Shown here: positions 5,535-24,914 of the stretch, one piece after another
Position numbering within the stretch: position 1 is the first letter of the stretch
Layout: each line of letters begins with the position of its first letter
Assembly: GCA_021734325.1 (NCBI GenBank)
Contig: JAIPJF010000004.1
Span: forward strand, 62,001-126,000
DNA from: Fidelibacterota bacterium
GTDB taxonomy: Bacteria > Fidelibacterota > UBA8477 > JABMPR01
Direction: 5' to 3'
Length of the DNA: 64,000 bases
Notes under the pieces: model-generated
Told to the model about the DNA's origin: nothing
Databases searched by the model: none
The model's input: only the letters and a program-made list of their open reading frames with translations
Translations under genes and position numbers: made by a program

Positions 5535-6215
5535 CTAGTAGTCAAACCAGTTTAGCGTACTTAACCCGGCTTCGGAGAATCTTGAAACAATTCCATCACC
5601 GGGTAGCTTTGGAATATCTGAAAAATGAGAGCTGCAGTGCATAATAAAATCTTTCCATTCACTCTTTTTAAGATGATTTGCGGTAAGCGATTGGAATAGG
5701 CCAGGCATATTCATATGTGAAGATGGAAGCCTTATATTTGGAATGCGATTTTTCACAAAATCATCGTTCACATTGTATTGAAACGCTTCATTTTGGGTAA
5801 TAATTGAACGGTTAGAAAATTGAGTGTGACAAATTGGATGTGCTGGTTGAACCTGTATATCAGCATCGAAATGAATACTTTCAAGAGTATATGCTATATC
5901 ACCATCTATTTTATAGTAGGATACCCTCGAGGTTGACTTTACACATTTCATATTTGCCAAGTCTATTGTCTCAATAAAAGAAGCAAGAATCGAAATCGTT
6001 TTCTGACTCCTGTCTCGCATAGGCCATGACTTGAAAAAGAAGCACTGCTTAGGCTTAAGAATGATATGATTCCCATCAAATGAGGTCGTAATAACAGGAG
6101 CGATTGGGTAACAAGTATAACTATTCCCCCTCAACCAACTAATGGCAGTGGTTACACTCTGTTGGTAGTACCTCTTTATTGTCGAGGCATTATTACTCAA
6201 TACAACCCCAACCAA
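5535..6215 (-). CDS. Hypothetical protein (ORF226), last gene of the kinase module
   Basis: 226 aa ORF, overlaps the upstream receiver-like CDS by 19 nt; no family recognised. Confidence 0.65.
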   Translation of the reverse strand: MVGVVLSNNASTIKRYYQQSVTTAISWLRGNSYTCYPIAPVITTSFDGNHIILKPKQCFFFKSWPMRDRSQKTISILASFIETIDLANMKCVKSTSRVSYYKIDGDIAYTLESIHFDADIQVQPAHPICHTQFSNRSIITQNEAFQYNVNDDFVKNRIPNIRLPSSHMNMPGLFQSLTANHLKKSEWKDFIMHCSSHFSDIPKLPGDGIVSRFSEAGLSTLNWFDY

Positions 6216-7279
6216 GGCGCTAGTTCATCAAACTTGTCTATTCTAATTCTGGATAAGTTAGCACCAGCGGGGAACCAACTTATCCCACCTTTCGAATTTT
6301 CCGCGCTAACAGGCTTTCTTGTAACCATGCAATAATAACCTGCCTCTGTGTTTGTGACTTCATCCAAACAGGGATCCACCTTTTTACCTTTATAATTTGC
6401 ATATGCGTTGCCGTCCGGACACTTCTCCTCAAGTAAAAGGTCATCCAACTTATGACGCCACCAATACTTATTATTTGCGCCACTAAATGGACCATTATAC
6501 TGTGCAATCTTGAATAGATCTTGAACTGAATCATCTTTGAATGCATCAACATTAATATTGAGATAGCTCGCTGCGGCAATTTGATTAACTAAAAGACCCG
6601 GGAAGCGCAATATTGAAGTATAAAGCCAATTTCCCAACACACGGACCATACGTCCTGTTATATTTGCCTTCGAGGATGCATGATTATCTCCAATAAATGG
6701 CATTATCTCTTCAAGAAGACCTTGCTCACCTGATCCATATAAAGCGATTTGTTCCTCCACTTCTGGGACACCCAAAAGGTTTGCCAAAGCTTTAGGGGGT
6801 GAGGATGCTTGCGCCAGGCTTAGATCTCTATACTCATTATTAATCCATTGAAACCCCTTAAAGAGGTTCAAACTCTGTGCAACGAGCGTCTCAACATCTC
6901 TGGAATCGAGAATAATTCTCTTCTTTTCCCAAGGGGATAAACTTCGAAGGAATTCTTCTCCCTCTTGCTCGCCAGTTCCTCTGGCATAAAGACATATTGG
7001 GAAGCCTAGTTCATCGGCAACTGCTGCTACCACCGTTCCAGATAAACCCAGGAACTTGCCTAATCCTGAAAGATCTTTGTCGCACACAATTAAAGCTTCT
7101 CCAGGCTTAATCTCTGATAACATATCTTTAATTAGGGATTCATATGTAATGTTTCGTTGGAAATCAATCTCTCCGTCTATCAATTTAATCTTAACGTTCT
7201 TATCGACTGACCTACTCAGAGCCTTATGAATTTGATCCCGTCTGCTAATATCATCCTCAAAGAGGATTATTGAATTCAT
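6197..7279 (-). CDS. Response-receiver-like protein with unknown C-terminal domain
   Basis: Likely start ATG at 7279 (MNSIILFEDD…); FEDD and LIVCDKDLSGL fit acidic pair and phospho-acceptor Asp of REC domains; ribosome site AAGGAG overlaps the stop region of the upstream kinase. Confidence 0.65.
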   Translation of the reverse strand: MNSIILFEDDISRRDQIHKALSRSVDKNVKIKLIDGEIDFQRNITYESLIKDMLSEIKPGEALIVCDKDLSGLGKFLGLSGTVVAAVADELGFPICLYARGTGEQEGEEFLRSLSPWEKKRIILDSRDVETLVAQSLNLFKGFQWINNEYRDLSLAQASSPPKALANLLGVPEVEEQIALYGSGEQGLLEEIMPFIGDNHASSKANITGRMVRVLGNWLYTSILRFPGLLVNQIAAASYLNINVDAFKDDSVQDLFKIAQYNGPFSGANNKYWWRHKLDDLLLEEKCPDGNAYANYKGKKVDPCLDEVTNTEAGYYCMVTRKPVSAENSKGGISWFPAGANLSRIRIDKFDELAPWLGLY

Positions 7280-7284
7280 AAGTG

Positions 7285-9480
7285 TCACTCCTTCACTTTT
7301 TGAAATTGGACTTTGAAACAAGTATTATATCCTGGTGGTGGATCAACAAGCCTAATACGACCACCTACTTCAGAGATGAGTTTCCTTACAAGTGATAAAC
7401 CCAAACCCATTCCCGATCCAAGTGGGTTGTTCGTTCCCCCCGAGGTTGTAGTAAATAATGGGTCCCATATTCTATCTCTCAAACTCTCGGGAATGCCAAC
7501 CCCTGTATCAGCTACTTCAACGAGGTGAAACACAGAATCATTCCATGCTTTAATCACTATTTTGGGGGAAGAATCTGACCCCTGGCCACCGGAAATTGCC
7601 TTTAGAGCATTTGAGTACAGATTAAGAATGATTCCACCGTATAATGCCACAGGTATGGCGGGTGTCATTAGTTTAGGATCAACATCAATCTGGATGTCTA
7701 CGTTTCTATTTTCAGCAAAATATTCATATCTATCAACAACGCGTTTTATCTGTTGTTTTGCATTTAGCGGTACATTTTTTGTGTACGGGGCCTGTACGTT
7801 TGATATGTATGTGGAAGCGAACTGAATTTGTCCTGCAATTTCTTCTCTGGTTCTGATAATAGAGGCTATTTCGTCCTTTAAGCCATGCTTTCCGCTGAGC
7901 TTACTAAGCACTTTTATTGCACTATCAAGATCATGAATAAGTCTGCGCATTTCGTGGGTAAGAAAACCGGCCAATATTCCAAGTAGAGCAACCATCTCCA
8001 TCCTTGATGTAGCAGTTTTCTGGTAGTCTTGAACATCTTTTAATTCATGGGTTAGCCTCTGAAAATGCTTGACAACTTGTTGTCTGTCACCTTCAGATAA
8101 AGATGGAATTTTATTAACGTATTTAATCGCCTCCTGGAAATCTTTCCTCATTGACTCCGCGGCTTTTTTCGCGGCCTCTGCTTCCATTCGTCTTTGTTCT
8201 GTGTGGTCAGCATACGCCAACATTTCCAAACCGGTTCTAATAAGGTCTACGAGTTGTTTGAATGCTTGATTACTTATAAACCCCTCTCTATCCATTGCTG
8301 GTGTTATATCATCAGGCTGCTTCGTTGATTCAACATAAACTGCTCCAATTAGCTGATGGAAGCTTGGTAGATACAACATTGGATTGGACCGGGGATTTGA
8401 TATTGCATCAGGTGACATCGGATAAAGTTCTTCCATTATCTTTGATCGCCAATGACGTCTGTTGTAACCAGTATCAAGGCCCAAGTTTAACCAATCATTG
8501 TCTGGGTAACCATAGGGACGAATACGAAATCCATGATCTACAATTCCCACTCCACCATTGTCTCGTAACCAACTCCATATTTGGCGACCATCAACTTCTG
8601 CCCCCTTAAAAACGCCTGCTCGGCGAGGTAAATAGCGTATATCTGCAAATAACCCATTTTGGATGTAATTTTCAAATCCGATTGTGTGCTCAAGAAGACA
8701 TCGACCATTTTTACTAACAATTGCTATAATAGCTTTTTGCCCAGCTAAATTTATTGTTAGCCGGAGCAACGAATTGTCTAATACTGACTTTGCCAGATTT
8801 TCATCGCTGCTCACATCAGATTCTGGGAGAAGTATTGTAAAGCCAGGATCGCTGTCAGACTTACCCTCCCTCGTAAATCGGTCATTGTCAAGACCTGAAT
8901 AGGGATCTATTATTGAAAGCAGATCAGTCCGCATCTGCTTATCAAAAACTATTTCATTTGCGTTATGAAGATCTGTAATTACTAATTTCGTACCTGGTTT
9001 AACATCGCTATCCACATCCACTATTTCATACGGAATTTTTATTTCGTTGATATGCTTTGCTTCATCTAATTTCATCCAATCGAAATCTACAGACAATTGA
9101 GTAGTTACTTTTTCACCTGGGTAGTTGGAGATTGTTTCTAGACGAAGCTTCTTGCCTAAATACCTAACGGCGAACCTTCCTATACCTTTGGAACCAGTAA
9201 CATTTCTTCGAAAACGTCGTGATATCAATTCTCTCTGCTTTGAAGGTGTAGCTATATACATCCACTTGCTTAAAAATTCTTCCTCGTTCATCCCCTGTCC
9301 ATCATCTTTAATAATAACAGACTCCCCATCATAAATCACCTCGCAGAAGGAGGCATCAGCATCATAAGAATTTTTAATTAATTCCATTAGTGCGACATCA
9401 GCTTTTGCAACGAGCCTTTCCCCCAGCTCCTGCAATAGCCTTCCGCGCGTCTGAAATATAGCTTCACCTTTTTTTATCAT
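7285..9480 (-). CDS. Double-GHKL protein: N-terminal HSP90/MORC-like ATPase plus C-terminal histidine kinase core
   Basis: N-terminal ALMELIKNSYDAD / IKDDGQGM / TGSKGIGRFAVR; C-terminal H-box LTHEMRRLIHDL, N-box NLYSNALKAI, G1 EVADTGVGIP, F LFTTTSGG, G2 GSGMGLGLSLV; ATGA overlap with upstream methyltransferase. Confidence 0.85.
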   Translation of the reverse strand: MIKKGEAIFQTRGRLLQELGERLVAKADVALMELIKNSYDADASFCEVIYDGESVIIKDDGQGMNEEEFLSKWMYIATPSKQRELISRRFRRNVTGSKGIGRFAVRYLGKKLRLETISNYPGEKVTTQLSVDFDWMKLDEAKHINEIKIPYEIVDVDSDVKPGTKLVITDLHNANEIVFDKQMRTDLLSIIDPYSGLDNDRFTREGKSDSDPGFTILLPESDVSSDENLAKSVLDNSLLRLTINLAGQKAIIAIVSKNGRCLLEHTIGFENYIQNGLFADIRYLPRRAGVFKGAEVDGRQIWSWLRDNGGVGIVDHGFRIRPYGYPDNDWLNLGLDTGYNRRHWRSKIMEELYPMSPDAISNPRSNPMLYLPSFHQLIGAVYVESTKQPDDITPAMDREGFISNQAFKQLVDLIRTGLEMLAYADHTEQRRMEAEAAKKAAESMRKDFQEAIKYVNKIPSLSEGDRQQVVKHFQRLTHELKDVQDYQKTATSRMEMVALLGILAGFLTHEMRRLIHDLDSAIKVLSKLSGKHGLKDEIASIIRTREEIAGQIQFASTYISNVQAPYTKNVPLNAKQQIKRVVDRYEYFAENRNVDIQIDVDPKLMTPAIPVALYGGIILNLYSNALKAISGGQGSDSSPKIVIKAWNDSVFHLVEVADTGVGIPESLRDRIWDPLFTTTSGGTNNPLGSGMGLGLSLVRKLISEVGGRIRLVDPPPGYNTCFKVQFQKVKE

Positions 9481-10796
9481 AAATCACCAGTAGTTCCATC
9501 GGTATACGAGTTTAGAATTGAGTTCAATTGCCGAATCTCAATTTTCTTCAAGCCATGTGAATGTGGAACAACTCTAGCTTCGAAATCTAATGCTGCCAGA
9601 TACGCTTGCAGTTTGGTTTTGTTCGTGTTTTTGCTCCCATATATTCCTGCAACACCGCCAATTGCTCGAGCCCCAATGGAGTTTATCAAAACTTTTGGTC
9701 GTTTGTTTACAAAACCAGTGCTCACCAATAGATCAGGAGCATCATAAGGTGCATATTCATACCAGACATTTCTACTGTTACAAGTTGATGTATCCCTCGT
9801 CGACATAGGTATACTACCTAAGTACATTTGCAGTTCTTGGGATAAACTCCTTTCGTAGGATTTAATTAGCCAACACTTCAATCCAGCATCTACAAACCGC
9901 TTTTGAAAAGTCCTTGATGTGAGTCTGGTTATGCTCTCAGGCAGTTCACGTAGCGTTGTTACACAAGGTAAAACGTCGGCTTTTTTCAAACCCCCATGTA
10001 TCCTTTCACCCTCTGTTAGAGTGAAAACTTTTTGAGTACCTGGACTCATTCCGCGCTTAGCCCACAAAATTCCTCTATTCTCATATTCAAGCACAGATTG
10101 AGTTGAACCTGTTTGATATTGAACGGGGTGAATATTCCCATCTTTCTCCATTATATAGTAATTCCAGATTCCTTGACTTCCGCGTTTATCTATAATTGTA
10201 ATAGATGCTGTAGTCATCACCTCCCGGAAAATAGGATATGAGAATTGGTAGACATCCACATTCCAATTATTCCGTTTTATATATTTTCGTATGCTCTCAC
10301 CAGATGGTCTGGACACCCACTCGTATGGCACCACCACAGCTACTAAACCATCCTCCTTTGATTTAATAAGTGATAAAAACATGAAATAGATATAGAGATT
10401 TGCCTTCCTGTTAAATTTCACACCAGTCTCAGATGAAAGCCTTTTTGCGACCTTGTCCCTCCATTCTTTTTCAAGGTCATGACTTCTAACGTAAGGGGGA
10501 TTCCCAATACAGGCTGAATAATCACCCCTGTCAAATTCAAAGGCACATGTGTTGTGCATTTTTATCTTTGGTGACGATGATGAGAGGGGAATTTTGGCAA
10601 TATCAATCTCTACACCATCATATATTGAAAAATTTCCGTTTCTTGCAAACCGTGCATCACCTGCTCCAAGATCTAGCACGTTTAGGTAGCTATTTCGATA
10701 CTGACCAAGTATCTCCCAGAATCGATCGACGACAACATCTGGCGTTACTACCTGGGATCTGGATAGTTGATATGCGGATTTATTTTGTATCATCAT
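9477..10796 (-). CDS. N6-adenine class DNA methyltransferase
   Basis: VLDLGAGDARFARN (motif I) and GNPPYVRS (motif IV). Confidence 0.85.
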   Translation of the reverse strand: MMIQNKSAYQLSRSQVVTPDVVVDRFWEILGQYRNSYLNVLDLGAGDARFARNGNFSIYDGVEIDIAKIPLSSSSPKIKMHNTCAFEFDRGDYSACIGNPPYVRSHDLEKEWRDKVAKRLSSETGVKFNRKANLYIYFMFLSLIKSKEDGLVAVVVPYEWVSRPSGESIRKYIKRNNWNVDVYQFSYPIFREVMTTASITIIDKRGSQGIWNYYIMEKDGNIHPVQYQTGSTQSVLEYENRGILWAKRGMSPGTQKVFTLTEGERIHGGLKKADVLPCVTTLRELPESITRLTSRTFQKRFVDAGLKCWLIKSYERSLSQELQMYLGSIPMSTRDTSTCNSRNVWYEYAPYDAPDLLVSTGFVNKRPKVLINSIGARAIGGVAGIYGSKNTNKTKLQAYLAALDFEARVVPHSHGLKKIEIRQLNSILNSYTDGTTGDL

Positions 10797-10965
10797 TTCT
10801 TTTTTCTTCTAATAGTAATACTCCAAGCTACAGAAAAGGTGTCAATATGCAATGATCATAAAAGCATGGGAATCCTTAATCTCCCCACATTATACACTCC
10901 CTGCCTTGTCAACGCTGACCAGAATAACACTTCTTTTCACTTTCCCCAAATCATATTGTCTTACA

Positions 10966-13900
10966 CTACTCCTCCTCAAACCCCTGACTCTCAAACTTCA
11001 ACGTCCGACAATTTTCCATGACGGTGCGGACCAACTTCTCATCGGCACCATCAGGAAGGTGGGCTGAGATTTCAAGCGTCACCGTCACATTTGCGCCAAC
11101 TTTACCCTCAAGGTGAGAGATAACCTCATCGGCGATCTGTCCTGCAGCCTTTCCAACTCTGGAAGGATCCAGATTAACTGAGCCATAAAAGCGCTTGGGC
11201 AGTTTCTGAGGTTCTGGGACATCAGGTGTTGGCGAATCCGGGAACAGGCTCCCATCAGTACGAGTAGTGCCCGGGATATCAGGCTCGACTGGTGTGCCCG
11301 CTGGCGTTTGTTGCTCTGCCACAATTTGTTTGAGCGCCGGCTCAGGTTTCACCAGCATCCCACTATCATCCTCCTGAATATTCATTGTTCGGGCAGATTT
11401 TAGGCCCTCGTATCGTTTTTCAACTTCATTATACGACTCTGCATAGGCGTAGAAGTCCTTGTTCCACGCCAGTGACTCCAAACCATTACTGATGGCCTTA
11501 ACCAGCACTCTCGTGGTCTGCATGCGTGGGAAATAGGTATACCGAGCGAAATCATCCAACACCTGTCTAATGCTCACGTGATCCTGGTTTTTGAAATAGT
11601 ATTTTTTGAGCTCGAGCTTTAGGCTGGCCGCTGAGTAATTAGTTATCAGCAGTTCATCATTCTTAAGCTTCCGACTTGCCCTTTCAGCAAGCGGATCCTG
11701 CCCACTTAGCCGTATTGATTGGAATTCGTAGGGGGTTTTGGGATCCGGTTGTGAAGGAACTAGAAGCCATTGATAAGCTTCCGGGATCCTCGTGACAACC
11801 ATGGTCTCCGCTGCTTTTTTCTGTGATTCTGCTTGCTTGACCTGTTGGGGGTCAAGATTCAGGCTATCCTTCTCAACCAAGATACTTTCCCAGGCCAGGA
11901 AGTTTCGAATGGCTTCTTCAAGATCCTGATATAAAACTTTATCTGCAGCCAGAAAAACCAGGGTATTTCGATATATCCGTGGTGTATTCCCCCTGTTTTC
12001 CAGAATGTCCTTGGCTCGTTTTAATGCCTGACTTCCAATATCCCGACTGTGTGGATGACCAGCATCCAGTACCACAAGACGTGCATCACGATCATCAGGA
12101 ACATCCTGTCCAGATGCTGGCAATGGATGTACCTTGGTAAAATCTCCTGATCGCCGGAGATTTTCACGCAGTCTTTTATCAAGTTCCATAAAGACTTTGT
12201 CTGAATCGCGACGCAGAATTTCAGCTTTGTCTGCTGCGAGCTTGGACACTGTTGGTGCTGTTGAATACCAGTACCGTGGACCATCCTGATACAGGAAGGT
12301 GGCGTTTGTGGCCAATCTCCTTAAACCATCCATGAAGATGGCTGGCGACTCTCCGGGCATGACACAGCCAAGTTTGATCCTGCGATCCTCAATACCACGG
12401 TTCGCCGCATCTTTCAACGGTGCTGAACCCATGTAGATCGTGCGGGCCACGCGGCGACAAGCAGAGAGCTTACCCAGATTGGGATTCTCTGAATCGGTTC
12501 GCAATGGCAGAGAATCAGGACCATCAACGTCCTTATCGATGACTGGAGTCCAGTTGTCTGGCAGAAACCTCGCCAGCTCCGACTGAACACCGGCGGTTCC
12601 AACAGGCATGTTGCCAGGCATAATGACAGGATTCTTATCTTCACTGACCCAAAGGGTATGAATGACCGTTGCCATGAGGCGCAAAACACCTCGTGTACGT
12701 TGGAAGCGTTCAAGGGTTGACCAGTCTGTATAAAGACGATCGAAAATTTCAGGATGGATAGGATAGGCGTCTTTCAGACGTTTCTCGTAATCCGCATTTG
12801 AGCATTCTGCAGGAAATTCTTGTGCCTGTGATCTATAAAGGTCAAAGTACTCCCGTGCTACAACATCCCTGGCTTTGAATTGTTCAGATTTTAATAAGGG
12901 TTCGAACAGACGTCTGCGAACGATCTCAAAGCTTTCTTCTGCTGAAGCAGGGCGCCAAGATGATTCCACCCGCCCAATAACACTTTGCAAGCGACCCAAG
13001 GCCTCGCGACCCCTCTGTCCACCTACTTCTTCATCTAGCGCCTCTATATGAGGTGATCCTGACCATTCTGAAGCAGGCAGGCTGATGACCACCAGACATT
13101 GTTTAGCACCTTTGGCAGCCTCAGTGATTAGCTGGGCAAAAGTAAATTGAGTTGCAAAGCTACCTGCAGGAAGATTACTCTTATCATGCAATTGTCTAGC
13201 GTAAGCAACCCACTCATCTATGAGAATGATGCAAGGACCGTATTCTATGAAAAGTTCACGTAACTTGTCACCGGGGTTGGTGGCATGTTCATCGTCGGCT
13301 TTAATCTTGTCGAAAGCTTCCTTGCCACCCAACTGATATGCAAGTTCACCCCAAAGGGTGCGAACGATGGTTCCATCCTTCTTAGTGACCGGATTACCAG
13401 GAGAAATTCTATTTCCCACAAGAACCACCCGCTTCGCAGGAGTTACTTTTTTTACTTCTGCGGCTTTGAGTAGTTCATCAACGCCCACCAGTTTTGAAGA
13501 TTCAACTTTTGGATCAAACAGGTGATAGATAGCCAGCATGGAGTGGGTTTTACCTCCTCCAAAGGTGGTCTGAAGGTCTACCACAGGATCTCCACCCTTG
13601 CCATCCATACGTCGAATCGCATTTGAAAGTAGTTTCTGGAGACTCTCAGTGAGATAGGTTCTGCGGAAAAATTCTGCAGCATCCTGATATTCACTGCTAC
13701 CGGACCCAAGGTACACCTGCCAGAGATCGGCTGCAAATTCAGCCTGCTGATATCTGCCGCTGGCCACATCCTGATGGGGTGCAATGACCTCCCTCCAGGG
13801 TTTTAATGCTTTGGCCGTGCTGCTCTCGATGGCAGTATCTGAGGTCTTGCGTTTCTCATTGCGAACCTGCTCATCAAAGCGTAGACGCAGCAGCTCCATC

Positions 13901-14301
13901 TTCATCTTTTCCACATCTTGCGCTTCTGGAGCCGAGACGGCCATTAGAAGGCGATTGATGGAATCAAGTGCCCGATAGGCGTCATCCCCGGTAAATGCGT
14001 GCTGGTGAGCCCATTTATTGCGAGCTCCACGGCTTTCACCCACCAGACTGCGTTCAGCGGGTCCTAGGGTGCGACGGAAAATTTCATTCCAGCCATCCCA
14101 CATTACTTTGAGCAGAGCTGCTGCGTCCCAGTCTTCCGGGCTACTATTTGTGTTAGGGGTATCATCCCCTAGAAAATATTTGTACTTGTCTTCTGCTTTG
14201 CCACCATAGGTGTTCACAAATTCGCGCTCCACAAAAGGAGCCAGTCCCTTTTTCAGAAGCTCAAGAGCTTTGCCTACGCGATCATAATTACTCACTGCCA
14301 T
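10966..14301 (-). CDS. Swt1-like HEPN plus DUF499 AAA+ ATPase
   Basis: 1111 aa; N-terminal RGARNKWAHQ (RX4H), Walker A TTFGGGKTHSMLA, Walker B CIILIDEW. Confidence 0.85.
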   Translation of the reverse strand: MAVSNYDRVGKALELLKKGLAPFVEREFVNTYGGKAEDKYKYFLGDDTPNTNSSPEDWDAAALLKVMWDGWNEIFRRTLGPAERSLVGESRGARNKWAHQHAFTGDDAYRALDSINRLLMAVSAPEAQDVEKMKMELLRLRFDEQVRNEKRKTSDTAIESSTAKALKPWREVIAPHQDVASGRYQQAEFAADLWQVYLGSGSSEYQDAAEFFRRTYLTESLQKLLSNAIRRMDGKGGDPVVDLQTTFGGGKTHSMLAIYHLFDPKVESSKLVGVDELLKAAEVKKVTPAKRVVLVGNRISPGNPVTKKDGTIVRTLWGELAYQLGGKEAFDKIKADDEHATNPGDKLRELFIEYGPCIILIDEWVAYARQLHDKSNLPAGSFATQFTFAQLITEAAKGAKQCLVVISLPASEWSGSPHIEALDEEVGGQRGREALGRLQSVIGRVESSWRPASAEESFEIVRRRLFEPLLKSEQFKARDVVAREYFDLYRSQAQEFPAECSNADYEKRLKDAYPIHPEIFDRLYTDWSTLERFQRTRGVLRLMATVIHTLWVSEDKNPVIMPGNMPVGTAGVQSELARFLPDNWTPVIDKDVDGPDSLPLRTDSENPNLGKLSACRRVARTIYMGSAPLKDAANRGIEDRRIKLGCVMPGESPAIFMDGLRRLATNATFLYQDGPRYWYSTAPTVSKLAADKAEILRRDSDKVFMELDKRLRENLRRSGDFTKVHPLPASGQDVPDDRDARLVVLDAGHPHSRDIGSQALKRAKDILENRGNTPRIYRNTLVFLAADKVLYQDLEEAIRNFLAWESILVEKDSLNLDPQQVKQAESQKKAAETMVVTRIPEAYQWLLVPSQPDPKTPYEFQSIRLSGQDPLAERASRKLKNDELLITNYSAASLKLELKKYYFKNQDHVSIRQVLDDFARYTYFPRMQTTRVLVKAISNGLESLAWNKDFYAYAESYNEVEKRYEGLKSARTMNIQEDDSGMLVKPEPALKQIVAEQQTPAGTPVEPDIPGTTRTDGSLFPDSPTPDVPEPQKLPKRFYGSVNLDPSRVGKAAGQIADEVISHLEGKVGANVTVTLEISAHLPDGADEKLVRTVMENCRTLKFESQGFEEE

Positions 14302-14304
14302 ATT

Positions 14305-17187
14305 TTACTCCTCAAAGAGATTTGATTGTTTTGGAGTTGTTTTACGAATACCCTGAGCTAGGCGAATCAGCTCAGGCCAGCTCTGGACAAGCATATTGTA
14401 CTGGAGTGCTTCCTGAGACCTCTTTTTGCGTTCTGCCAAGTTATAAAGTCGGTAGGCTAATTCACGCGCAGCTTCAGCAACGCTGCCAAGTTTAGCTACG
14501 ATGGCAGCTGCCTCTGCCTCACTGATTGCTAAAAGACGGATCAGATGATGGACAATTTCCCATTCAGTTAGGCGGTTATCTTTTTGCGGATCCCAATCTG
14601 TGGGCAGTTCGTCAGGTAGAAGGAGTCGAACCGTCCCTCTTTGTGAACTTAAAATACCTGCTTCCACCAAACCGGCTACACTGGTATTTTTAGCAGTGGA
14701 TAGGATTTCCGCCAAACCAAACTCACCCTCCTTAAAACCGACTTGATCATACCAAGCCAACGCCCACCTCGTGTCGGGACCAAAATCACCCTCTTGTTCT
14801 GCCAGAATCTCATCAAGTATCTCATTGATGAGGACCAGTGCGTCTCGGACCTTGAGCGTCTCACCTGCAGCATCCAGGATCTTGCTGAAGCGGGTGAATA
14901 TCTCCATGCCAGGACCGATCGCGGCTTGAGCCAGATCCACCGGTGCGATATTGCTGTTTTGTAATTCCTTGATCCCCGCTGGGAGTTCTGCCATCAGCAC
15001 ATTCCTGAATTCTTTGCGGGTCGCCATGGGTGCCTGGATCTCACGTTTTCGGCAGACCAGGATGATGCTGGAGGCGAGAGCGTTGGTGCCGGACCCGATC
15101 ATGCGATTGCTGAGTTCGGTGCGCATCGGCCATGTGCCGCTAATCGCGAAACCGGCACGGATTACCGCGTCGAGAAAAGTCTCCCAGCCGGTGCTGGAAG
15201 TACCTTCCGCGCTCTCGGTCTCGGACTGCTTGAAGGCGTAGTAGATCGTGACCGGAAAGGCTGGGTGCCCCTGCTCGGCAAGGCGGTGCATCGCATGGGT
15301 CATACCGTCGAGAAAGAAGGCCTCCGCCTTCTCCTTGCTACCATGACGATAAGGCGTGGCGACGAGTTCCTCTGCCTTGGGCACAGCGAGCGTAGCAAAA
15401 AGGTCGGGGTATACCTGTCGTAACGGGTGGCGCAACCAGACGTAAAAGAAATCCGACAGGTCCGCGTAGCCGATGTTATCGTAATACGGTGGGTCTGTGG
15501 AGATAAGTTTGTCGATTGAAATGTTCTGCCTAGCTGCATCACCTATACTCGCATGCCCAGGAGGATTGGTGGCGTTGGTCATACCCTTAATAAGCCCATC
15601 AACTGATATTCCGTAGTCACCGGCAGCCCCAGCAAATGGATTTACGTCGGGAAAGTCCCAAGTCATTGGGATAGCCTGACGAGCAAACGCAGTAACCGTT
15701 TGCTGTCGATTAGGCGTCCACCGGGCTATCGTGCAAACCGTGTTAGCCATTCGATCAATAGCGAGCGAGAGAAAAACTGCTACCGCTTCCGAATAGGCCA
15801 GCGCAGCATTCCCGCCTTCGCGAAGGGGCTTGCCTTCATCAGGGAGGCTTGTCGCGAGAGCGTCACTCTGCACGCGCTCGCGCGCTGCCTGCACGAGGTC
15901 GGAAAAGGTCGTCAGTGCCACGAGCTGGCGGGGGGTGAACAGGTCAGCAAAAGTCATTAAACCATAGTTCGGAGTTTTGAAATCACGTGGATTAACGGGC
16001 AGTAAGATGTCTGGCTTCCACTCAGGCTCCGCTTGTTGAGCTGTAACCTCGTGCTCTAGATTAGGTGAGAGATAAACACGACCGCGATCTCCTTCAGCAA
16101 CGATAGCCATAAGACGAGATCCCATACGGCCGGACTGCCCCTCATTCCTTATGTGGTCATAAGCAACCGGTACACCAGACATCAAACAGCGGAAAGCGGC
16201 TCGCTTGCCTGCCGTAGTACCGAGCTTAGTCCCGTCTAAATCTTCAGGTATACCAACCTTAACCTCGAACCGATAATTATCCTTTTTGATTACCGGCTTT
16301 ACGTACGCTTCCTTTCCTTTTTTCGTGGAGAGCATGAATGTTGAAACCAGGGGTATTTCCACCTTGGCGAAGGCTGGATTCGGGCTCTTTACTGTCCTGG
16401 CCCAGAGCCAGGCAATCACGGTCAGATTCCGCCCCAAATAGGGTTTCAGGTCTGGCCGCTCCTTCACCATCTCGGCGGTGATCTCCACCTTTGGATAGAG
16501 GTGACCGATACGCTTCTCGGCTTCATCCCGCATCCACTGCCCATAATAACGCACATCCTCGGCCAGTCCCTGAGCGCCCTTCCAGTTCTGTCCCAGCTTT
16601 TCGTTCCTGGATTTCTTCTGCCAGTCGGGATTCACCGGTTCCTTACCGGCGAATATCGGCGGGATCTCGATCATGGCTTTGTTGATGAGCACTGCTACAG
16701 GATTCAGATCGCTGGCGTAGGCTTCAAGCCCAAGTCGCTGGGCTTCTAGGGGCAAAGCACCGCCACCGGCAAAAGGATCATGAAATGCCGGCAACTTTTC
16801 CGGATTGAACAACACATCCGCCCGAGGATGCTTTTTATTGTCCTCACAAGCACGCCGCCAGGAACGCCAGATCTCCTTCCGGGCTTTCTCCAACACTTTT
16901 TCATTGGTCGTGTTCTCCCAGAGGACCAGGTCTTCGATGATTCCAAACAAGCGCTGGCGTTCCTTCTCTTGCTCAGCTTCTGTTTTGAACTCTTCCGGTA
17001 CTGCAGAGGGGTCATCCACCATTTGTGAGAATATGACTGCCCGAGCAGCCGCCAATGGACGACGTGCCCACCACAAATGCAGTGTGCTAGGATGACCATG
17101 TCTTATGGATTTTTCTCGTGCCGAGGCAACATTTATGGCATCCAATGGAAGCGCTACTTCAATAAGCTTTTTTCTGGTTTTTACCAT
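14305..17187 (-). CDS. DUF1156 family DNA methyltransferase
   Basis: 960 aa; N-terminal KKLIEVALPLDAINVASAREKSIRHGHPSTLHLWWARRPLAAARAV and motif IV DPPYYDNIGYADLSDFFYVWLR. Confidence 0.9.
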   Translation of the reverse strand: MVKTRKKLIEVALPLDAINVASAREKSIRHGHPSTLHLWWARRPLAAARAVIFSQMVDDPSAVPEEFKTEAEQEKERQRLFGIIEDLVLWENTTNEKVLEKARKEIWRSWRRACEDNKKHPRADVLFNPEKLPAFHDPFAGGGALPLEAQRLGLEAYASDLNPVAVLINKAMIEIPPIFAGKEPVNPDWQKKSRNEKLGQNWKGAQGLAEDVRYYGQWMRDEAEKRIGHLYPKVEITAEMVKERPDLKPYLGRNLTVIAWLWARTVKSPNPAFAKVEIPLVSTFMLSTKKGKEAYVKPVIKKDNYRFEVKVGIPEDLDGTKLGTTAGKRAAFRCLMSGVPVAYDHIRNEGQSGRMGSRLMAIVAEGDRGRVYLSPNLEHEVTAQQAEPEWKPDILLPVNPRDFKTPNYGLMTFADLFTPRQLVALTTFSDLVQAARERVQSDALATSLPDEGKPLREGGNAALAYSEAVAVFLSLAIDRMANTVCTIARWTPNRQQTVTAFARQAIPMTWDFPDVNPFAGAAGDYGISVDGLIKGMTNATNPPGHASIGDAARQNISIDKLISTDPPYYDNIGYADLSDFFYVWLRHPLRQVYPDLFATLAVPKAEELVATPYRHGSKEKAEAFFLDGMTHAMHRLAEQGHPAFPVTIYYAFKQSETESAEGTSSTGWETFLDAVIRAGFAISGTWPMRTELSNRMIGSGTNALASSIILVCRKREIQAPMATRKEFRNVLMAELPAGIKELQNSNIAPVDLAQAAIGPGMEIFTRFSKILDAAGETLKVRDALVLINEILDEILAEQEGDFGPDTRWALAWYDQVGFKEGEFGLAEILSTAKNTSVAGLVEAGILSSQRGTVRLLLPDELPTDWDPQKDNRLTEWEIVHHLIRLLAISEAEAAAIVAKLGSVAEAARELAYRLYNLAERKKRSQEALQYNMLVQSWPELIRLAQGIRKTTPKQSNLFEE

Positions 17188-17193
17188 GATGAT

Positions 17194-20100
17194 CTATCTC
17201 TTTTTCACTATTCTGTATTTTGCCGGGCGCAGATCAATGATATGCTCTTCAGCCATCTGTTTTAAATCAAACCCTTCAATCAATATTGGTTTCCCGTGTA
17301 AATCTAACAGGAGCATGCCGGAGTTCTCAGGGTAATCCTGAAATGAATGCCACATTTCTGCAGTCATCTCAATGGGCTGGATATCCCAGCACTTTTCAAA
17401 GACACCATATTTGAATAAAATCTCACCCTGGTTTGAGACCTGTTGCCATTTAAACACCGCTGTTCGATCGTACTCTAATCGTCGACCATCGCCATGAAGG
17501 TATAAACCATTCCCAGTGTGAAGAAATCCGATTTCGGATGCATAGCGATCCATTAACGAAGGTTCTGGCTGGTTCTTGGGTTTTGGTTTCGGTATGTTTG
17601 AGTTATCATTAACATCTTGAGCTTCTTTATCTGGCTCTATCATCTTGTCATCATTCTCCGAAACCGGTTCCTCACTTTCAGAATAGTCACCATCTTCAAC
17701 AGGAGGTGGTTCTGGGTTGTTTGAAGAGTCTTCTGAATCGAAGTGGTCTTCTGTCTCTTCTTCTTGCAGATCATCTTCCAAAAATGTGAATCTGGAGCGG
17801 AGAATCTCTTCAACGAAAGCCACAGGCCTTTCATAACAATCCCTCAATGCTGCAATGACCTCACCATGTCCAAGGTGCCGACCCAATTCGGTAACAATGG
17901 CATCCATGATCTTGGCATCAGAGAGATCGGCATGATAGACCTGGTTGGTAAAAAAGAGTACGTTTGATTCTTGCAGAGTGCCCACAGGGGCACCCCCGAT
18001 TTGGGGGGCACGGGTCAATTTTTCTGCCTTTTGAAAAAAGGTTTGGCCCATCCTTCGAGCAACTTCATGAACTCTAATTTCATCCTCTTGCCTGTCCAAA
18101 ATGACATGTGACATCAGTTCACCAAATCGAGACAACCAGTCCTTGGGTGTAGCGCTTCCAATTATTCTTGTTTTCTCGCCAAGTTTAAAGGTGAGCACCA
18201 TAGTCAGATCTTCTAATGCATCACCAAAAAGAGATTGCTCCAAATCAAACGAGAGCATAGTACAGTCAGCTATTACTTGCCTATACTGGATAAATAATGC
18301 CGCTGCATCAATCCCAGAGGATGTGCTATAATGATACTTCAGCGCATCCAGGGGCACCCACTCCTCGTTGGCATTGAGCCAATGTTTCGATTGGGCTTTC
18401 ACCTTTTCAGCCTGCTTTGGCAGTATAATTCGTAAGCGCTGCAAGGTTTTGGATTCAAGAGAAGTCCCTTCAGGTAGAGATTCCATCCATGCCAGGGTGA
18501 GCTCAAAGGTGGGTCGCTCAGGGACTCCCAGGGTTTGCCACATCCGCAAGGTGTTCAAGGCTTCCGGGATAAGTGGAAGTCCAGGATCATCAGACCCGTC
18601 AGCCTGGAGAAAAACATGTTCAGACGTAGCCCATTCATCCTGATTTGTTGGAATAAGTGCATTGGCTTTGAACCTGGCGATGGATTCCTCGATCATATCC
18701 GTTCCTACGTCTGAGAGGATTCTATCTAGGCGTCGATACCACTGTTGAAGATCAGGGACCTGTGAAGGTTTGCCACTTGTGAATTCAGCAAGGATGGCGA
18801 GGATGTTTCCAGGTCCTACAGGCGTTGTTAATACACCTAATGCCTCAAGTAATACTCTATTGTTCTCATTGTCCAAGTCAGGTCGCACAAAGGATTCCAC
18901 GTTCAGGACAGCCTCATTGGCTGAAGTCCTGCAATGGAGTTCGCGTGGTACACTGATCTGACCGTTTGAATCTTCTAAACAAGGTAGGTCACGAAAGCGG
19001 AATATCCACAAGGGGTAGAGTTGTGCTGTCAATACAGATGCTCTTGTACCCTGTTGAGATATATGATTTGCTCGCGCATGAAGAGCCTTTTCCCATGGCT
19101 TTTGGGGATCTTGGAGCAAAGCTTCAAGCACTCGTGCATAAACAGCTGAATCGTCTGCTGATAATGATTTCCAATACTCACGAAGTTCACTATCAAAATC
19201 AGGTTCTACTATTTCAAAATGATTCGATTTGTAACGTTTATTTATTTGATCTGAGTATCCTCTGATTCTCAAAGCTTCAACAAAATCATCCTGTTGGTAA
19301 TACCAAGAATCTGTATATTCAATGAAGGGGGGAAATCTCACCAACGAAGTTCGACCACTGTTAATCCAATTTACCCATTCTTCATGAGTACAAGTAAGGT
19401 TGTCTTTATGATAGTCTTGATGGAGGAAGTATGCCTGCCTATAATCTTCTGGAACTATATCTTCGAGTCGATATTCAATATCCGCCAAAACATGTTCATC
19501 CTTGCCGGCAAGATTTCCATCTTTAGTGAAGAACTGAAAGCAATCCGTAACATCTGCCCGAAGACGAGCTGCAATATGAGCAAGCTTCACCGCATCCTTT
19601 CGAGAAACTTTTGGTGAGCCAAAGAAGATGGCGCCAACACGTTGCATTATAGTATTGGTGTTGCTGGGACTCTTGAGCTCTAGCGTCTCCATCAGATTCT
19701 GGACTTTTCTGATATCCACTCTTGTAGGACCATTTGGCATTGTTTCAGACTCACGTAGGAGCTTCGTGATGTACTTTGGCCACCCCTGATCCAGAACAAG
19801 CATGTACTGCGTTAGATATGTCCAGTCATTTTCCTTGAGATTTTCTCTTTTCTCGCCGAGCCTAATCACTTCTGTGTACGGAAGCAGGATTTTCAATCCT
19901 TTTACTGGTACTATTGCGACCTTTTTATTATCCCGATACCAATCGTCCGCTATCTCATCAGCCAGATATGACCATAGCTGGAATATTTTGAAAAAGGTTT
20001 CAGGTCTAGGCGGCTTTTTAATTTTCAGTTTTGAAATGATATCAATTTTTGATGTACGCACTATCAAGCTGTAGCGCGTAAGTATCTCTACAGCTCCCGA

Positions 20101-21354
20101 CGAAACACTTCTACAAAGAATTTGCTGGGCAGTGTCACCAAAATAATCCTTTAGTTGTTTCGCTGACCAAACCTCCATGATCTGCCGAGGCAAAGCTTGG
20201 CATCTGTTTTTAGCTGTCACCAAGCCCTTCTCCGATAGCAGAATCCGATTTGTATCTATCCCACGGATGAATCCTTCCTGAACAACCCTACGAAGTTGTT
20301 TAGCTGTTGTTGTTTCATCCTCACTGGGTGTAATAAGCAAGCGGTAGGCCTTCGCACGATCTTCATTGCTTAGACCACTATTTTGTATCCACCTGGTCAT
20401 CGTTGTCGCTGCAAGCTCACCGCTTTTCAGAAGTAACCATCTGTTAGTGGGTGAGAGGGCATTGTCCTTCAAGCCGCTCCTGGCAGGATCCTGAAGAAAG
20501 GGAGCATTGATGGCAAAAGGATTTTCTAAATCTAGTTGTGTTGGGAGGATGACGTATAGCTTTCCGGCCATACCAAGCACCAGCTCAATATGGAATCCAG
20601 GCAGATCCTCCCCGGGAGCAATATCTCTTTCAGATCTAATCTCTGCTTCCGCATCGGAGGGAAATTTGATCATATCAGATCTTACGTGAAGCATCCTTCT
20701 ACCATCACCATTTTTGAGCGAAACCCACTCACATCCAGAAACTGGACCGTCAGCTTGTCTTACCCAGCGGAGTTCTTCATCTTCAATAGTGAGTGAACGT
20801 AAGGTCTTGAAGAAAAGTATCGAAGCCGGATTATTTACCCATTCGGTAAAATTTCGGTTTAGCTCTTTTCCCTGGTCGTCGGTATTTACTGGGACTCTAA
20901 CTTCAGTCCAGCCATCCTCATGCTTATCTGAATTCGTCCATACTGGTAAAGTGAAATGCTTACGTTCAAACTTGACAGACAGAGTTTTTGTCCGCAAAAC
21001 TACAGGGTCACCCAAGCTAAAAGTGCTCTTAAACCCTATTCCTCTAAACCCGATTGTATGAAGCGTCCTTTTGTGGGAGTTCGCAAACTGGCAGACCGAA
21101 TCAAAGTCAGATTCAGTAAAATCAGCGCCATTATGCCGAAAGATGAATTCACCATTTTGAAATGAAGCAGTTGCCTCAGTTGCTCCTGCATCATCTGCAT
21201 TTTGCAGCAACTCTGAAAGAACATGTCTCGGGCTCTGGACCTGTATAAATAGTTGTTTCCAGGGTCCAGAAAGACCAGGGTCAGCATCAAGCTTTTGCCA
21301 GCGAAGCCGAGCTTCTTGTTCTATTCTACCAAAGTAGTCAGGAGCCTGCATCAT
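17194..21354 (-). CDS. Sacsin-like N-terminal GHKL ATPase domain protein
   Basis: 1386 aa; VLSELLQNADDAGATEA, HNGADFTESDFDSVCQFANSHK, IGFRGIGFKSTFSLGD; acidic linker then C-terminal domain. Confidence 0.8.
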   Translation of the reverse strand: MMQAPDYFGRIEQEARLRWQKLDADPGLSGPWKQLFIQVQSPRHVLSELLQNADDAGATEATASFQNGEFIFRHNGADFTESDFDSVCQFANSHKRTLHTIGFRGIGFKSTFSLGDPVVLRTKTLSVKFERKHFTLPVWTNSDKHEDGWTEVRVPVNTDDQGKELNRNFTEWVNNPASILFFKTLRSLTIEDEELRWVRQADGPVSGCEWVSLKNGDGRRMLHVRSDMIKFPSDAEAEIRSERDIAPGEDLPGFHIELVLGMAGKLYVILPTQLDLENPFAINAPFLQDPARSGLKDNALSPTNRWLLLKSGELAATTMTRWIQNSGLSNEDRAKAYRLLITPSEDETTTAKQLRRVVQEGFIRGIDTNRILLSEKGLVTAKNRCQALPRQIMEVWSAKQLKDYFGDTAQQILCRSVSSGAVEILTRYSLIVRTSKIDIISKLKIKKPPRPETFFKIFQLWSYLADEIADDWYRDNKKVAIVPVKGLKILLPYTEVIRLGEKRENLKENDWTYLTQYMLVLDQGWPKYITKLLRESETMPNGPTRVDIRKVQNLMETLELKSPSNTNTIMQRVGAIFFGSPKVSRKDAVKLAHIAARLRADVTDCFQFFTKDGNLAGKDEHVLADIEYRLEDIVPEDYRQAYFLHQDYHKDNLTCTHEEWVNWINSGRTSLVRFPPFIEYTDSWYYQQDDFVEALRIRGYSDQINKRYKSNHFEIVEPDFDSELREYWKSLSADDSAVYARVLEALLQDPQKPWEKALHARANHISQQGTRASVLTAQLYPLWIFRFRDLPCLEDSNGQISVPRELHCRTSANEAVLNVESFVRPDLDNENNRVLLEALGVLTTPVGPGNILAILAEFTSGKPSQVPDLQQWYRRLDRILSDVGTDMIEESIARFKANALIPTNQDEWATSEHVFLQADGSDDPGLPLIPEALNTLRMWQTLGVPERPTFELTLAWMESLPEGTSLESKTLQRLRIILPKQAEKVKAQSKHWLNANEEWVPLDALKYHYSTSSGIDAAALFIQYRQVIADCTMLSFDLEQSLFGDALEDLTMVLTFKLGEKTRIIGSATPKDWLSRFGELMSHVILDRQEDEIRVHEVARRMGQTFFQKAEKLTRAPQIGGAPVGTLQESNVLFFTNQVYHADLSDAKIMDAIVTELGRHLGHGEVIAALRDCYERPVAFVEEILRSRFTFLEDDLQEEETEDHFDSEDSSNNPEPPPVEDGDYSESEEPVSENDDKMIEPDKEAQDVNDNSNIPKPKPKNQPEPSLMDRYASEIGFLHTGNGLYLHGDGRRLEYDRTAVFKWQQVSNQGEILFKYGVFEKCWDIQPIEMTAEMWHSFQDYPENSGMLLLDLHGKPILIEGFDLKQMAEEHIIDLRPAKYRIVKKR

Positions 21355-24300
21355 CCTGGAGGGCTGGCTTTCGCAATAAGATCTGAGAAGTTATAGTTTA
21401 CGCTGGTAACACCGAAATCAGGTTCTCGCTTGAATGGTTTACGGATATAATGAACCGTGTGCTTATCCCCGTCAAATTCAACGATGACCAAGATAAACGC
21501 TTCCGGTTTATTCAGGGAGTACAGGATCTCATTTTTTGTCACTGTAATAGTTGGTGCCCCTGTGACCCTTCCTTTTGCTTCAATAAAGCGAATATTGCCT
21601 GTCTTCGGGTCTATGCTTTCAATATCATACCCCAGCTTTTCAGTTTCGCGATCTGTGGGCACATAGCCCAGTTTCCGCTCCTCTTCCATGATGATGTTTC
21701 TGGCTTTGGCCGCGGAGATCTGGGTATCCATGATATGTTTTGGTGGCGTGGCTGACTTGCCCTGAATAAGACGAATTAACCCAATAGGCGCTACCACTAA
21801 TCCACCCAGAATGACAGGCGGTTTCGCAGAAATCTTTTCTTGTAGCGCCAATTCATCCATTCGTTTTTGCAAGCGACCGGCTAAATCATCTGCTCGCCGT
21901 TGGGCTTCGATGGCGTTCATTTTCGGGTTATTTCTCCCCGCTTGTTCCTTGAGTTTGAGCTCCTGAGCTCGATGATCCCAATGATTGATTTCGCGGGTTA
22001 ACCTCTCCTTTACAGCAGCCCTGGTCTTAGCAATCCACTTTAGGCGAGGTCCTCGTACTTCATTCAGATGCTCCTGCACGAGTGTTTCAATTGCATGTTG
22101 CTGTGCTACAGTTTCGAGATCTTTAGTTACCCAACTGCATGCCTCATGATTCAGAATACTGCCAATATCCGGTTCTTCGCTTAATAATGCCCGATAATCC
22201 AGATACGGTGCATAGTGAAGATGATTTTTGTTGCCATCACTGTTTATTTGGACATAAAGCATTTGGCGAGATATATCCCGATGTGCTTTGTCGGCTGTGG
22301 TTTGAGCATCCTGGATGGAATGCTCGAGATAGAATATAACACGAGGTTTTATTCCGTAGTCTGACTCATCTACTAGTGTGGTCCCCCTTCGTAATAAATC
22401 GCGATGACGTTCCAAAACGAGATCAAGAGAAGCATCGAGTAAGGGGTGGCCCGGGCAAACGAATGCTGCTGGTGGGCGGCTATCTATATCAACAAGGTCT
22501 TTCTCAAACGTGATGCGTTCATAGCGTGGAGAAATAGCTGCACGTATTCCAATCTGTCGGTCCCGATTTTTTACAGGGGCTGGTACGTGGGTTATTTGAT
22601 ATCGTCGTTTTTCACGCTCTTTAGCGGTTCCGCCCAAACGTTTAAAAGATTCCAGGAAAAATGCTTCAATATAATGAGGCTGCAATCGGCGACTGTCAGC
22701 TCGCTCCATATCAATACGGACATTTCTTACCCGCTCGGTATCGAGAACATCATGCACCAAGGATTCATCCTCTAAGAGTCTATGGAGATGATCTGGATCG
22801 ACTGAGTCATCAATAACCCTGTCAAGACGTGCTTTTACTTCGGGATCCTCACCCATACGAATCGCTTCGATAAGAAGGGTGCGCAACGGTTTCCCTTCAA
22901 ATTCCAGTTTACCGAGAACATCGTACACCTGGCCCTTGAGGGATTCTCGAGCCTGTTCCAGCTTGTCCAAAAGTCTCCGATAGACGTCACCCTCCCTGGT
23001 CTCATCAGCCACAAGATTCCACAGGAAGCAGACATTTTTTTGTCCGATTCGATGGATACGGCCAAATCGTTGCTCCAGTCGATTCGGGTTCCAGGGGAGG
23101 TCATAATTAATCATCAAATGAGCACGTTGAAGGTTGATACCTTCGCCAGCTGCATCCGTCGCTAAAAGAATTTTTACTTCCGGGTCCACCTTGAAAGCTT
23201 CTTGTGCCTTTAAGCGTTCCTCGCGACCCATCCCGCCATGTATCATGACAATTGAACTCTCCGATCCCAGAAGTGTTGATATCCGTCTGAACAAGTACGA
23301 AAGAGTATCTCTATGCTCTGTGAACAGGACAAGCTTTTGGGTAGGAGATGATTCAAATGACTCAGGGACAACAGAATTAAATTTTCCTCCATTTTCAGCG
23401 ATTTGGTTGGCAATAATCTCTGGGGTGAATATTTCCTCTATTAGCTGCTTTACTTCGACCCATTTGGTATCTTCACCAGATCGCAATACCGCTTTTGCCA
23501 AACTTTCAAGGCGGGTAATTGTATTGATTTCAGCCTTCAGCTCATCAGCTGTTCGAGCTGCAGTAGCCTGGTCTAAGATTTCATCTTCAGCTGCTGCCAA
23601 TTCCTCCTCTGGGGCATCCTCAAGATCTTCCAAGTCTTCAAGGTCATAGCTGGGGTATTGAATCTCAAACACACCACGTTTCATAAGTTCGACTTCACGA
23701 AGTCTGGATTCCAGCCGATCCTTTCTGCGTGATAACGACTTGTAGATTGCCTCTGGGGAAGATGCGAGTCTACGCTGCAGAATGGTAAGGGCGAAACCAA
23801 CAGTACCCTTCCGCTTTTCGTTTTGGACGGCTTCAGCACGGTTAAATTCTTCACGGACGTAATCTGTCACCATTTTGTAGAGTTGGGCTTCTGCTGATGA
23901 TAGCTTAAATGGAACTGTCGTGGCAATTCTTTCAGGGAAGAGAGGCTTCCCATCAAACTTTACGAGATTCTCTTTCACCATGCGACGCATCAGGTCTGAA
24001 ACATCTGCACTATGAACGCCATCGCGAAACTTGCCTTCAAAGCGATCACTATCGATTAAAGACATGAAAAGCTGAAAATCTTCTTCCTTACCATTGTGGG
24101 GTGTGGCAGTCATAAGCAAAAAGTGCCTCGTCATCCCCCCTATGAGTTGTCCTAATCTGAATCTTTTTGTGTACTTCACCTCGCCACCAAAAAAGGACGC
24201 AGACATCTTGTGTGCTTCATCGACAACAACCAGATCCCATCGAGTATCGGGTACTGATAGTTTGGCTTGCACGTCCTCATTTCTTGAGAGTTTATCCAAC

Positions 24301-24914
24301 CTTGCTATCACCAGATCATTTTCAAGAAACCAATTGCCCGTTCTGGCTGATTCCAGTTTATCGTTCGTCAGGATCTCAAATGGAAGTTGAAATCGATTAT
24401 AGAGTTCATCCTGCCATTGTTCTGCAAGACTTCCTGGGCAAATGACCAGGCATCGTTTCAGGTCACCTCGAACAATCAATTCACGCATGAGTAAACCGGC
24501 CATGATGGTTTTACCTGCACCGGGATCATCAGCGAGGAGGAACCTGAGGGGTTGTCGTGGAAGCATTGCTTCATACACCGCTGTTATTTGGTGTGGCAGT
24601 GGGTCGACCTGGCTGGTGTGTACAGCAAGGAGTGGATCAAAAAGATGTGCCAACCGTATGCGGTGTGCCTCTGAAACGAGGCGAAACAAGTCACCTTCAG
24701 CATCAAAGCTCCATGGCCGGCCAATGTCAACAATTTCGTAATCATCAAGATTATTGCGAAAAATGAGCTGGCTATCCGTTCGACCTTCAGAATCCTCATA
24801 TATTAGTTTCAATGTTTCAGTACCGAACCATTGGGTGCTAACCACTTTCACTACTGAAGATGGAAGGATTCCACGTATGGTAGCGCCGGGTTTAATATCC
24901 TCAAGCTTTAGCAT
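21351..24914 (-). CDS. SNF2-type helicase with C-terminal DUF3883 nuclease-like domain (DrmD-like)
   Basis: 1187 aa; ADDPGAGKTIMAGLLMREL, VVDEAHK, QRFGRIHRIGQ; C-terminal GYDIESIDPKTGNIRFIEAKGRV; ATGA overlap with sacsin-like gene. Confidence 0.85.
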   Translation of the reverse strand: MLKLEDIKPGATIRGILPSSVVKVVSTQWFGTETLKLIYEDSEGRTDSQLIFRNNLDDYEIVDIGRPWSFDAEGDLFRLVSEAHRIRLAHLFDPLLAVHTSQVDPLPHQITAVYEAMLPRQPLRFLLADDPGAGKTIMAGLLMRELIVRGDLKRCLVICPGSLAEQWQDELYNRFQLPFEILTNDKLESARTGNWFLENDLVIARLDKLSRNEDVQAKLSVPDTRWDLVVVDEAHKMSASFFGGEVKYTKRFRLGQLIGGMTRHFLLMTATPHNGKEEDFQLFMSLIDSDRFEGKFRDGVHSADVSDLMRRMVKENLVKFDGKPLFPERIATTVPFKLSSAEAQLYKMVTDYVREEFNRAEAVQNEKRKGTVGFALTILQRRLASSPEAIYKSLSRRKDRLESRLREVELMKRGVFEIQYPSYDLEDLEDLEDAPEEELAAAEDEILDQATAARTADELKAEINTITRLESLAKAVLRSGEDTKWVEVKQLIEEIFTPEIIANQIAENGGKFNSVVPESFESSPTQKLVLFTEHRDTLSYLFRRISTLLGSESSIVMIHGGMGREERLKAQEAFKVDPEVKILLATDAAGEGINLQRAHLMINYDLPWNPNRLEQRFGRIHRIGQKNVCFLWNLVADETREGDVYRRLLDKLEQARESLKGQVYDVLGKLEFEGKPLRTLLIEAIRMGEDPEVKARLDRVIDDSVDPDHLHRLLEDESLVHDVLDTERVRNVRIDMERADSRRLQPHYIEAFFLESFKRLGGTAKEREKRRYQITHVPAPVKNRDRQIGIRAAISPRYERITFEKDLVDIDSRPPAAFVCPGHPLLDASLDLVLERHRDLLRRGTTLVDESDYGIKPRVIFYLEHSIQDAQTTADKAHRDISRQMLYVQINSDGNKNHLHYAPYLDYRALLSEEPDIGSILNHEACSWVTKDLETVAQQHAIETLVQEHLNEVRGPRLKWIAKTRAAVKERLTREINHWDHRAQELKLKEQAGRNNPKMNAIEAQRRADDLAGRLQKRMDELALQEKISAKPPVILGGLVVAPIGLIRLIQGKSATPPKHIMDTQISAAKARNIIMEEERKLGYVPTDRETEKLGYDIESIDPKTGNIRFIEAKGRVTGAPTITVTKNEILYSLNKPEAFILVIVEFDGDKHTVHYIRKPFKREPDFGVTSVNYNFSDLIAKASPPG

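Follow-up and report, generated by a model that had tools for sequence, protein, structure and literature searches.

The region described here spans positions 5535-24914 of the window, by which we mean the whole 64,000-nucleotide stretch of DNA that was analysed. Reading its open reading frames gives eight long genes, all on the minus strand (Table 1), and reproduces the order, strand and coordinates given by an initial annotation of this DNA. The junctions, taken 5' to 3' along the operon, are tight on both sides of one break: HmaA and SacsL overlap by 4 nt, SacsL and HmaB are 6 nt apart and HmaB and HmaC 3 nt apart; beyond a gap of 169 nt between HmaC and the methylase, the methylase and kinase genes overlap by 4 nt, the kinase and receiver-like genes are 5 nt apart (using the ATG at 7279), and the receiver-like gene and ORF226 overlap by 19 nt with a TTG start. 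On re-measurement the 169-nt break, already recorded among otherwise close junctions, is the sole real gap; no promoter or terminator within it rose above shuffled sequence. Protein families were assigned with Pfam, PADLOC and NCBIfam models, with matches at E = 0 for several of the eight genes, which are not chance, and Pfam agrees with the domains that had been guessed for the helicase, sacsin ATPase, DUF1156, HEPN/DUF499, methylase and kinase genes. A ninth gene, absent from the earlier gene list, encodes a small HTH_17 protein 13 nt upstream of hmaA and is a probable operon regulator; a small HTH gene also lies just upstream of Hma in E. coli loci, and a WYL regulator occupies that place in two others (L018 and L043).

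Table 1. Features of the region, in window coordinates
Feature	Position	Strand	Basis
HTH_17 (excisionase/MerR-like) gene, 68 aa	24928..25134	-	Pfam HTH_17 3.6e-14
HmaA, SNF2 helicase with C-terminal DUF3883/NOV_C PD-(D/E)XK nuclease motif	21351..24914	-	PADLOC, Pfam
SacsL, 1386-aa sacsin/NO-VEIN-type GHKL ATPase in the HmaA-HmaB slot	17194..21354	-	Pfam SACS 3.3e-9
HmaB, DUF1156 and N6-type DNA methyltransferase	14305..17187	-	PADLOC, Pfam, motifs
HmaC, Swt1-like HEPN fused to DUF499 AAA+ ATPase	10966..14301	-	PADLOC, Pfam
Intergenic break, boundary of the two units	10797..10965	.	169 nt, 36.7% GC
Unit 2 gene 1, Eco57I-type adenine methyltransferase (NPPY)	9477..10796	-	Pfam Eco57I 4.1e-16
Unit 2 gene 2, soluble double-GHKL kinase, paraMORC-like	7285..9480	-	Pfam
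Unit 2 gene 3, receiver-like N-terminus and conserved, unassigned C-terminal domain	6197..7279	-	Conservation in four copies
Unit 2 gene 4, ORF226, HPxxHxQ motif, no family model	5535..6215	-	Positional homologues in L002, L047 and L065

The window also holds an HsdM-type methylase gene (27205-28677) and then a Schlafen/AlbA_2 gene with a recG-C-like ATPase (25566-27068); no HsdS or HsdR was seen near 25566-28677, which we describe as a further partial or unusual R-M unit within the region. A Fic protein gene (30618-31982) and a tRNA-Lys (32700-32773) form the far edge of the defence region, and a search for attachment-site repeats at this tRNA and the region edge gave nothing convincing. On the other side, a MazG-like ORF (4988-5485) begins with 50 residues that by eye resemble the arm-binding portion of a tyrosine integrase and may be what is left of a recombinase, joined to the ORF in frame. 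In the relatives examined for an empty site, the pair of flanking genes falls on separate contigs.

By sequence, the genes upstream of the break (unit 1, 10966-24914) are an Hma system, that is, a Type-1 BREX-related (BR) system. Hma was defined as an operon of three genes, for a helicase, a methylase and an ATPase, that Septu often accompanies (PADLOC, PMC8565338), and was reinterpreted in 2026 as Type-1 BR, in which HEPN is commonly fused to DUF499 (1370 of 2446 taxa) and the helicase has a C-terminal PD-(D/E)XK nuclease (PMC12839542). The first report of the HEPN-DUF499/R-M neighbourhood dates from 2013, and for antiphage activity of Type-1 BR a review cites the activity of an HmaA helicase. 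The initial annotation had regarded the gene combination as unnamed; its first half has a name, because all three core proteins give near-full-length PADLOC matches and retain their catalytic motifs. HmaA matches PDLC00659 with 1606 bits over residues 1-1184, with Walker A (DDPGAGKT), DEAH and nuclease (GYDIES...IEAK) motifs intact. HmaB matches PDLC00660 over its full length (1542 bits; Pfam DUF1156, 5.4e-32) and keeps DPFAGGG and DPPYY, and HmaC matches PDLC00662 with 1128 bits over residues 165-1110, i.e. without its extra N-terminal HEPN (HEPN_Swt1, 6e-34), and keeps GGGKT and the HEPN RX4H motif as RNKWAH. The three-gene operon by which PADLOC recognizes Hma is thus present on one strand and in order, with one extra gene inside, as is the set that characterizes Type-1 BR: a DUF499 ATPase, a DUF1156 N6-methyltransferase and an SNF2 helicase with C-terminal PD-(D/E)XK. 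Among Hma loci elsewhere, HmaB is interrupted by an IS4 transposase in Thermus oshimai (L019, 12001-16053) and by two inserted ORFs in L043 (15241-17418), so those copies may be inactive; in another locus (L091, 5592-10763) a tandem pair of HmaB-type methylases separates HmaA from HmaC.

The extra gene of unit 1 sits where other Hma loci vary. We surveyed 25 loci with a visible HmaA-HmaB junction, from plasmids, E. coli chromosomes, IMG/VR contigs and the window, which are not all independent, the three from E. coli being near-copies. The junction is empty in seven (L020, L023, L028, L029, L031, L088, L091), holds SacsL in four (the window, L017, L018, L043), an intact Septu (PtuA and PtuB) in three (L022, L084, L095) and a truncated PtuA, a Septu remnant, in two (L083, L085). 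The other nine carry different genes: an NYN nuclease-like gene (L019), AAA plus DUF4435 (L025), Fic with hmaA inverted (L027), one short gene that is EVE/ASCH-like by eye (L089), and unknown proteins of 160-239 aa (L021, L024, L026, L030, L090). In E. coli AW1.7 the slot contains a 469-aa PtuA and PtuB; in MS6192 and LH13-b only the first 85 PtuA residues remain (92% and 86% identical), with hmaB close behind, and these loci show slot emptying. HmaC lacks the HEPN domain, at about 945 aa, in the three loci with intact Septu and has it in all SacsL-carrying loci, and in this small sample slot cargo may correlate with the HmaC HEPN. The junction between HmaA and HmaB resembles a docking site: other defence genes, including Septu, would be loaded into it and lost from it under Hma expression. 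The nesting of defence systems thereby becomes directly testable through natural E. coli variants.

SacsL itself keeps intact GHKL ATPase motifs and has a P_loop_sacsin match above cut-off. Its best-scoring defence family is PADLOC TmtA (6.8e-51), which we take to be Tiamat, with the strong stretches in the N-terminal third. Full-length homologues (L017, L018, L043) all occupy the HmaA-HmaB slot (3/3 in plasmids, a set that includes two twin Bradyrhizobium strains, and 1/1 in IMG/VR), other matches being to the ATPase domain alone; the association with Hma is based on 4 distinct loci in limited collections. Between hmaA and SacsL the Bradyrhizobium locus L018 has three extra small genes (12594-13962), the first weakly ASCH-like. 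IQ-TREE phylogenies of HmaA and of HmaC both split the SacsL-bearing loci between two separate Hma clades, with well-supported branches between the two. L043 and the window share 68% identity in HmaA and 65% in HmaC, yet 35% in SacsL, and the L043 SacsL has 64% identity with its Bradyrhizobium and Niveispirillum counterparts, against 56% for HmaA between L043 and these two; Meiothermus, with an HmaA 74% identical to that of L043, is without SacsL. Given the two clades, the discordant distances and the SacsL-less Meiothermus, SacsL was probably gained or replaced at least twice while remaining with Hma. A topology conflict between SacsL and core trees was considered and dropped: the four-taxon unrooted topologies agree, and only distances and presence or absence differ.

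Beyond the break, the four genes of unit 2 recur as a complete set in the same order at three other loci. These are a Paraburkholderia largidicola plasmid (L002; identities of 42, 42, 35 and 27% for methylase, kinase, receiver-like protein and ORF226), an IMG/VR contig (L047; 55, 50, 41 and 34%) and L065 (48, about 40, 33 and about 30%, its kinase and ORF226 being measured against the Paraburkholderia proteins). We describe the latter two as prophage contigs: in L047 unit 2 sits in the structural gene block, in the opposite orientation, with a lambda-type portal gene on one side and a gene for the terminase large subunit on the other, and in L065 it is flanked by genes for an S24-type repressor and a phage integrase. 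Accessory defence genes are common at such positions in temperate phages. The collections covered were plasmid, phage, E. coli, IMG/VR and the organism's own phylum, and in these limited collections the close form of unit 2 amounts to 4 copies in all. This genome alone among 245 of the phylum has unit 2; the 244 others gave neither unit, only weak or divergent HmaB- and sacsin-like matches. Viral-contig scans with the receiver-like protein and with the methylase returned nothing, while the kinase query did find matches, and two GTDB genome-wide scans with the receiver-like protein also returned nothing, which counts for little since the method depends on exact peptide seeds.

The unit 2 kinase consists of HATPase_c_3, a DHp-like helix with His-Glu, and HATPase_c, and both GHKL motif sets and the His-Glu are kept in all four copies. 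The receiver-like protein has acidic residues at Glu8-Asp9-Asp10 and at Asp67, the latter numbered from the ATG at 7279, the acidic pair and the Asp again conserved in 4/4 copies; a low-confidence AlphaFold model gives a beta-alpha order with Asp67 ending strand 3, and a relative encoded at the corresponding gene position has a weak Pfam Response_reg match and aligns weakly with this family. The models, built from 3-row alignments, are poor (pLDDT 45 for the receiver-like protein and 47 for ORF226) and were therefore used for N-terminal strand order only; PDB fold searches with both gave no match at E <= 0.001. ORF226 belongs to no known family, and the Pfam, PADLOC and NCBIfam models assigned none to it or to the receiver-like protein. 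All four close copies of ORF226 share its HPxxHxQ motif, which also occurs in the gene that follows the receiver (L003, 9291-10160) in a distant Hymenobacter module with a kinase of 25% identity; across the 683,000 ORF residues of all loci it turns up only once more. In other branches (L005, L049) the post-receiver gene encodes a metallo-beta-lactamase-fold protein. No nuclease was recognized in unit 2, and from their position ORF226 and the receiver C-terminus may constitute the effector.

From the protein families and a published proposal, adenine methylation by HmaB would label DNA as self, HmaC, the HEPN-DUF499 ATPase, would assemble on or scan DNA, the SNF2-nuclease HmaA would degrade unmarked DNA, and the HEPN RNase of HmaC might act as a last-resort effector. 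SacsL, inserted in the HmaA-HmaB junction, would be translationally coupled to HmaA. In unit 2 the methylase would protect host DNA, and the cytoplasmic kinase with its two ATPase modules would sense invasion and pass phosphate from its conserved His509 to the Asp of the receiver-like protein; the effector would be that protein, either by itself or together with ORF226. This scheme of methylase guard, sensor kinase, His-Asp relay and receiver effector we propose tentatively, at slightly under even odds.

Our main reading, with a probability of about 0.8, is that an Hma system with a dedicated accessory ATPase lies beside an independent candidate defence cassette, the two head-to-tail in a laterally acquired region; the division into two units and their family placement we hold with high confidence. 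The eight genes had been annotated as a single composite operon, and the parts are indeed all of defence type, with a kinase/receiver pair attached after the break. As one system, in which that pair would control or sense for the Hma helicase-nuclease, they would fit the common strand, the 169-nt spacing and a gap with no convincing terminator, features that leave room for transcription of unit 1 to run on into unit 2. It is nevertheless very improbable, and a single composite system is rejected on the co-occurrence counts: unit 2 was found at 0/24 other Hma loci, where flanks of <1 to ~8 kb were read downstream of hmaC and a directly adjacent unit 2 would have been visible in most, and no Hma occurs in the flanks, as read, of the three other complete unit 2 copies (0/3). 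The initial annotation had itself named rare co-occurrence of the two halves elsewhere as grounds against its reading, and this is what the counts give. Each unit also has its own methylase, and GC steps at the boundary (unit 2 genes 38-41%, unit 1 genes 44-53%, neighbouring chromosomal genes ~46-50%). What was a tempting eight-gene "new system" is corrected into two testable units. Within the first, we give even odds to SacsL being an accessory dedicated to Hma, supplying it with a second arm for sensing or as effector. That it is instead an autonomous, Tiamat-like single-gene defence for which the Hma slot is merely a docking place seems unlikely: the relation to TmtA, the disagreement between SacsL and core distances, and the use of the slot by Septu, a named system that elsewhere occurs alone, would suit this idea, but most of the similarity to TmtA lies in the N-terminal third, and every full-length homologue found sits in the Hma slot and none alone. 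SacsL being unseen outside Hma could also mean that there is a functional subtype of Hma, defined by SacsL as a fourth and integral component, as would accord with the strict co-occurrence and the 4-nt overlap with hmaA; its presence in two distant Hma clades and its absence from close core relatives such as Meiothermus make this improbable.

For unit 2, an ordinary type II R-M system is a possible though doubtful explanation, with the receiver C-terminus or ORF226 as an undescribed restriction enzyme, the GHKL protein as a looping ATPase, and no phosphorelay. ParaMORC proteins are typical of R-M loci and the N-terminal GHKL domain of the kinase has BbrUII/HgiDII-type similarity, but the intact DHp-like His-Glu, the second ATPase and the receiver acidic residues are all kept in 4/4 copies. 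The boldest version of our own proposal we also regard as unlikely as a whole: that unit 2 is an autonomous phage- or plasmid-borne antiviral system in which a two-ATPase soluble kinase and a His-Asp phosphorelay switch a new effector class, the receiver protein together with the HPxxHxQ protein, its own methylase giving self-protection. As a candidate defence cassette, unit 2 would link two-component-type signalling to DNA methylation.

Comparison with known systems places the two units differently. BREX and DISARM membership is rejected: HmaA has BrxHII- and DrmD-type helicase similarity, as in Type-3 BREX and DISARM, but it scores 367 bits against the DrmD equivalog (cut-off 610), its DrmA match is a helicase-core cross-match, and, in agreement with the initial annotation, profile searches found no PglZ among the proteins scanned at 4.9-34.6 kb and no DrmB among the eight proteins. 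ARMADA-type arrays, considered because of the earlier suggestion of DISARM-like arrays, are set aside, a DrmA/DrmB-type core being unsupported. Unit 1 shares with Hma/Type-1 BR full-length, ordered, same-strand hmaA, hmaB and hmaC, and with most Type-1 BR the HEPN-DUF499 fusion, as well as the DUF3883 nuclease on the helicase; it differs in having hmaA and hmaB separated by a sacsin-type ATPase gene of 4.2 kb. Like Tiamat, which is a single large TmtA protein, SacsL has an N-terminal sacsin/HSP90-like ATPase within a very large protein; the similarity between them is local and mostly N-terminal, and SacsL is found only inside Hma loci; Septu (PtuAB) shares the slot with SacsL but is a separate named system of unrelated proteins. 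Judged by its gene content, unit 2 is a divergent relative of the "two-component-like" restriction modules (HEF_HK/Response_reg_2) of Bellieny-Rabelo and colleagues, in which a paraMORC-derived kinase (HATPase_c_3 + HEF_HK + HATPase_c) adjoins a receiver-like protein; these lie in R-M loci, often flanked by a C5-methylase upstream and by a gene for a Vsr nuclease downstream (PMC8011034). No window protein matches Pfam PF19191 or PF19192, and the Paraburkholderia kinase reaches 17.1 bits against HEF_HK (cut-off 24.1), with the match correctly positioned. Unit 2 has the same architecture, the kinase domains with their phospho-His region beside an adjacent receiver-like gene and a methylase upstream, but its methylase is an adenine rather than a C5 enzyme, and it has a conserved fourth gene of its own.
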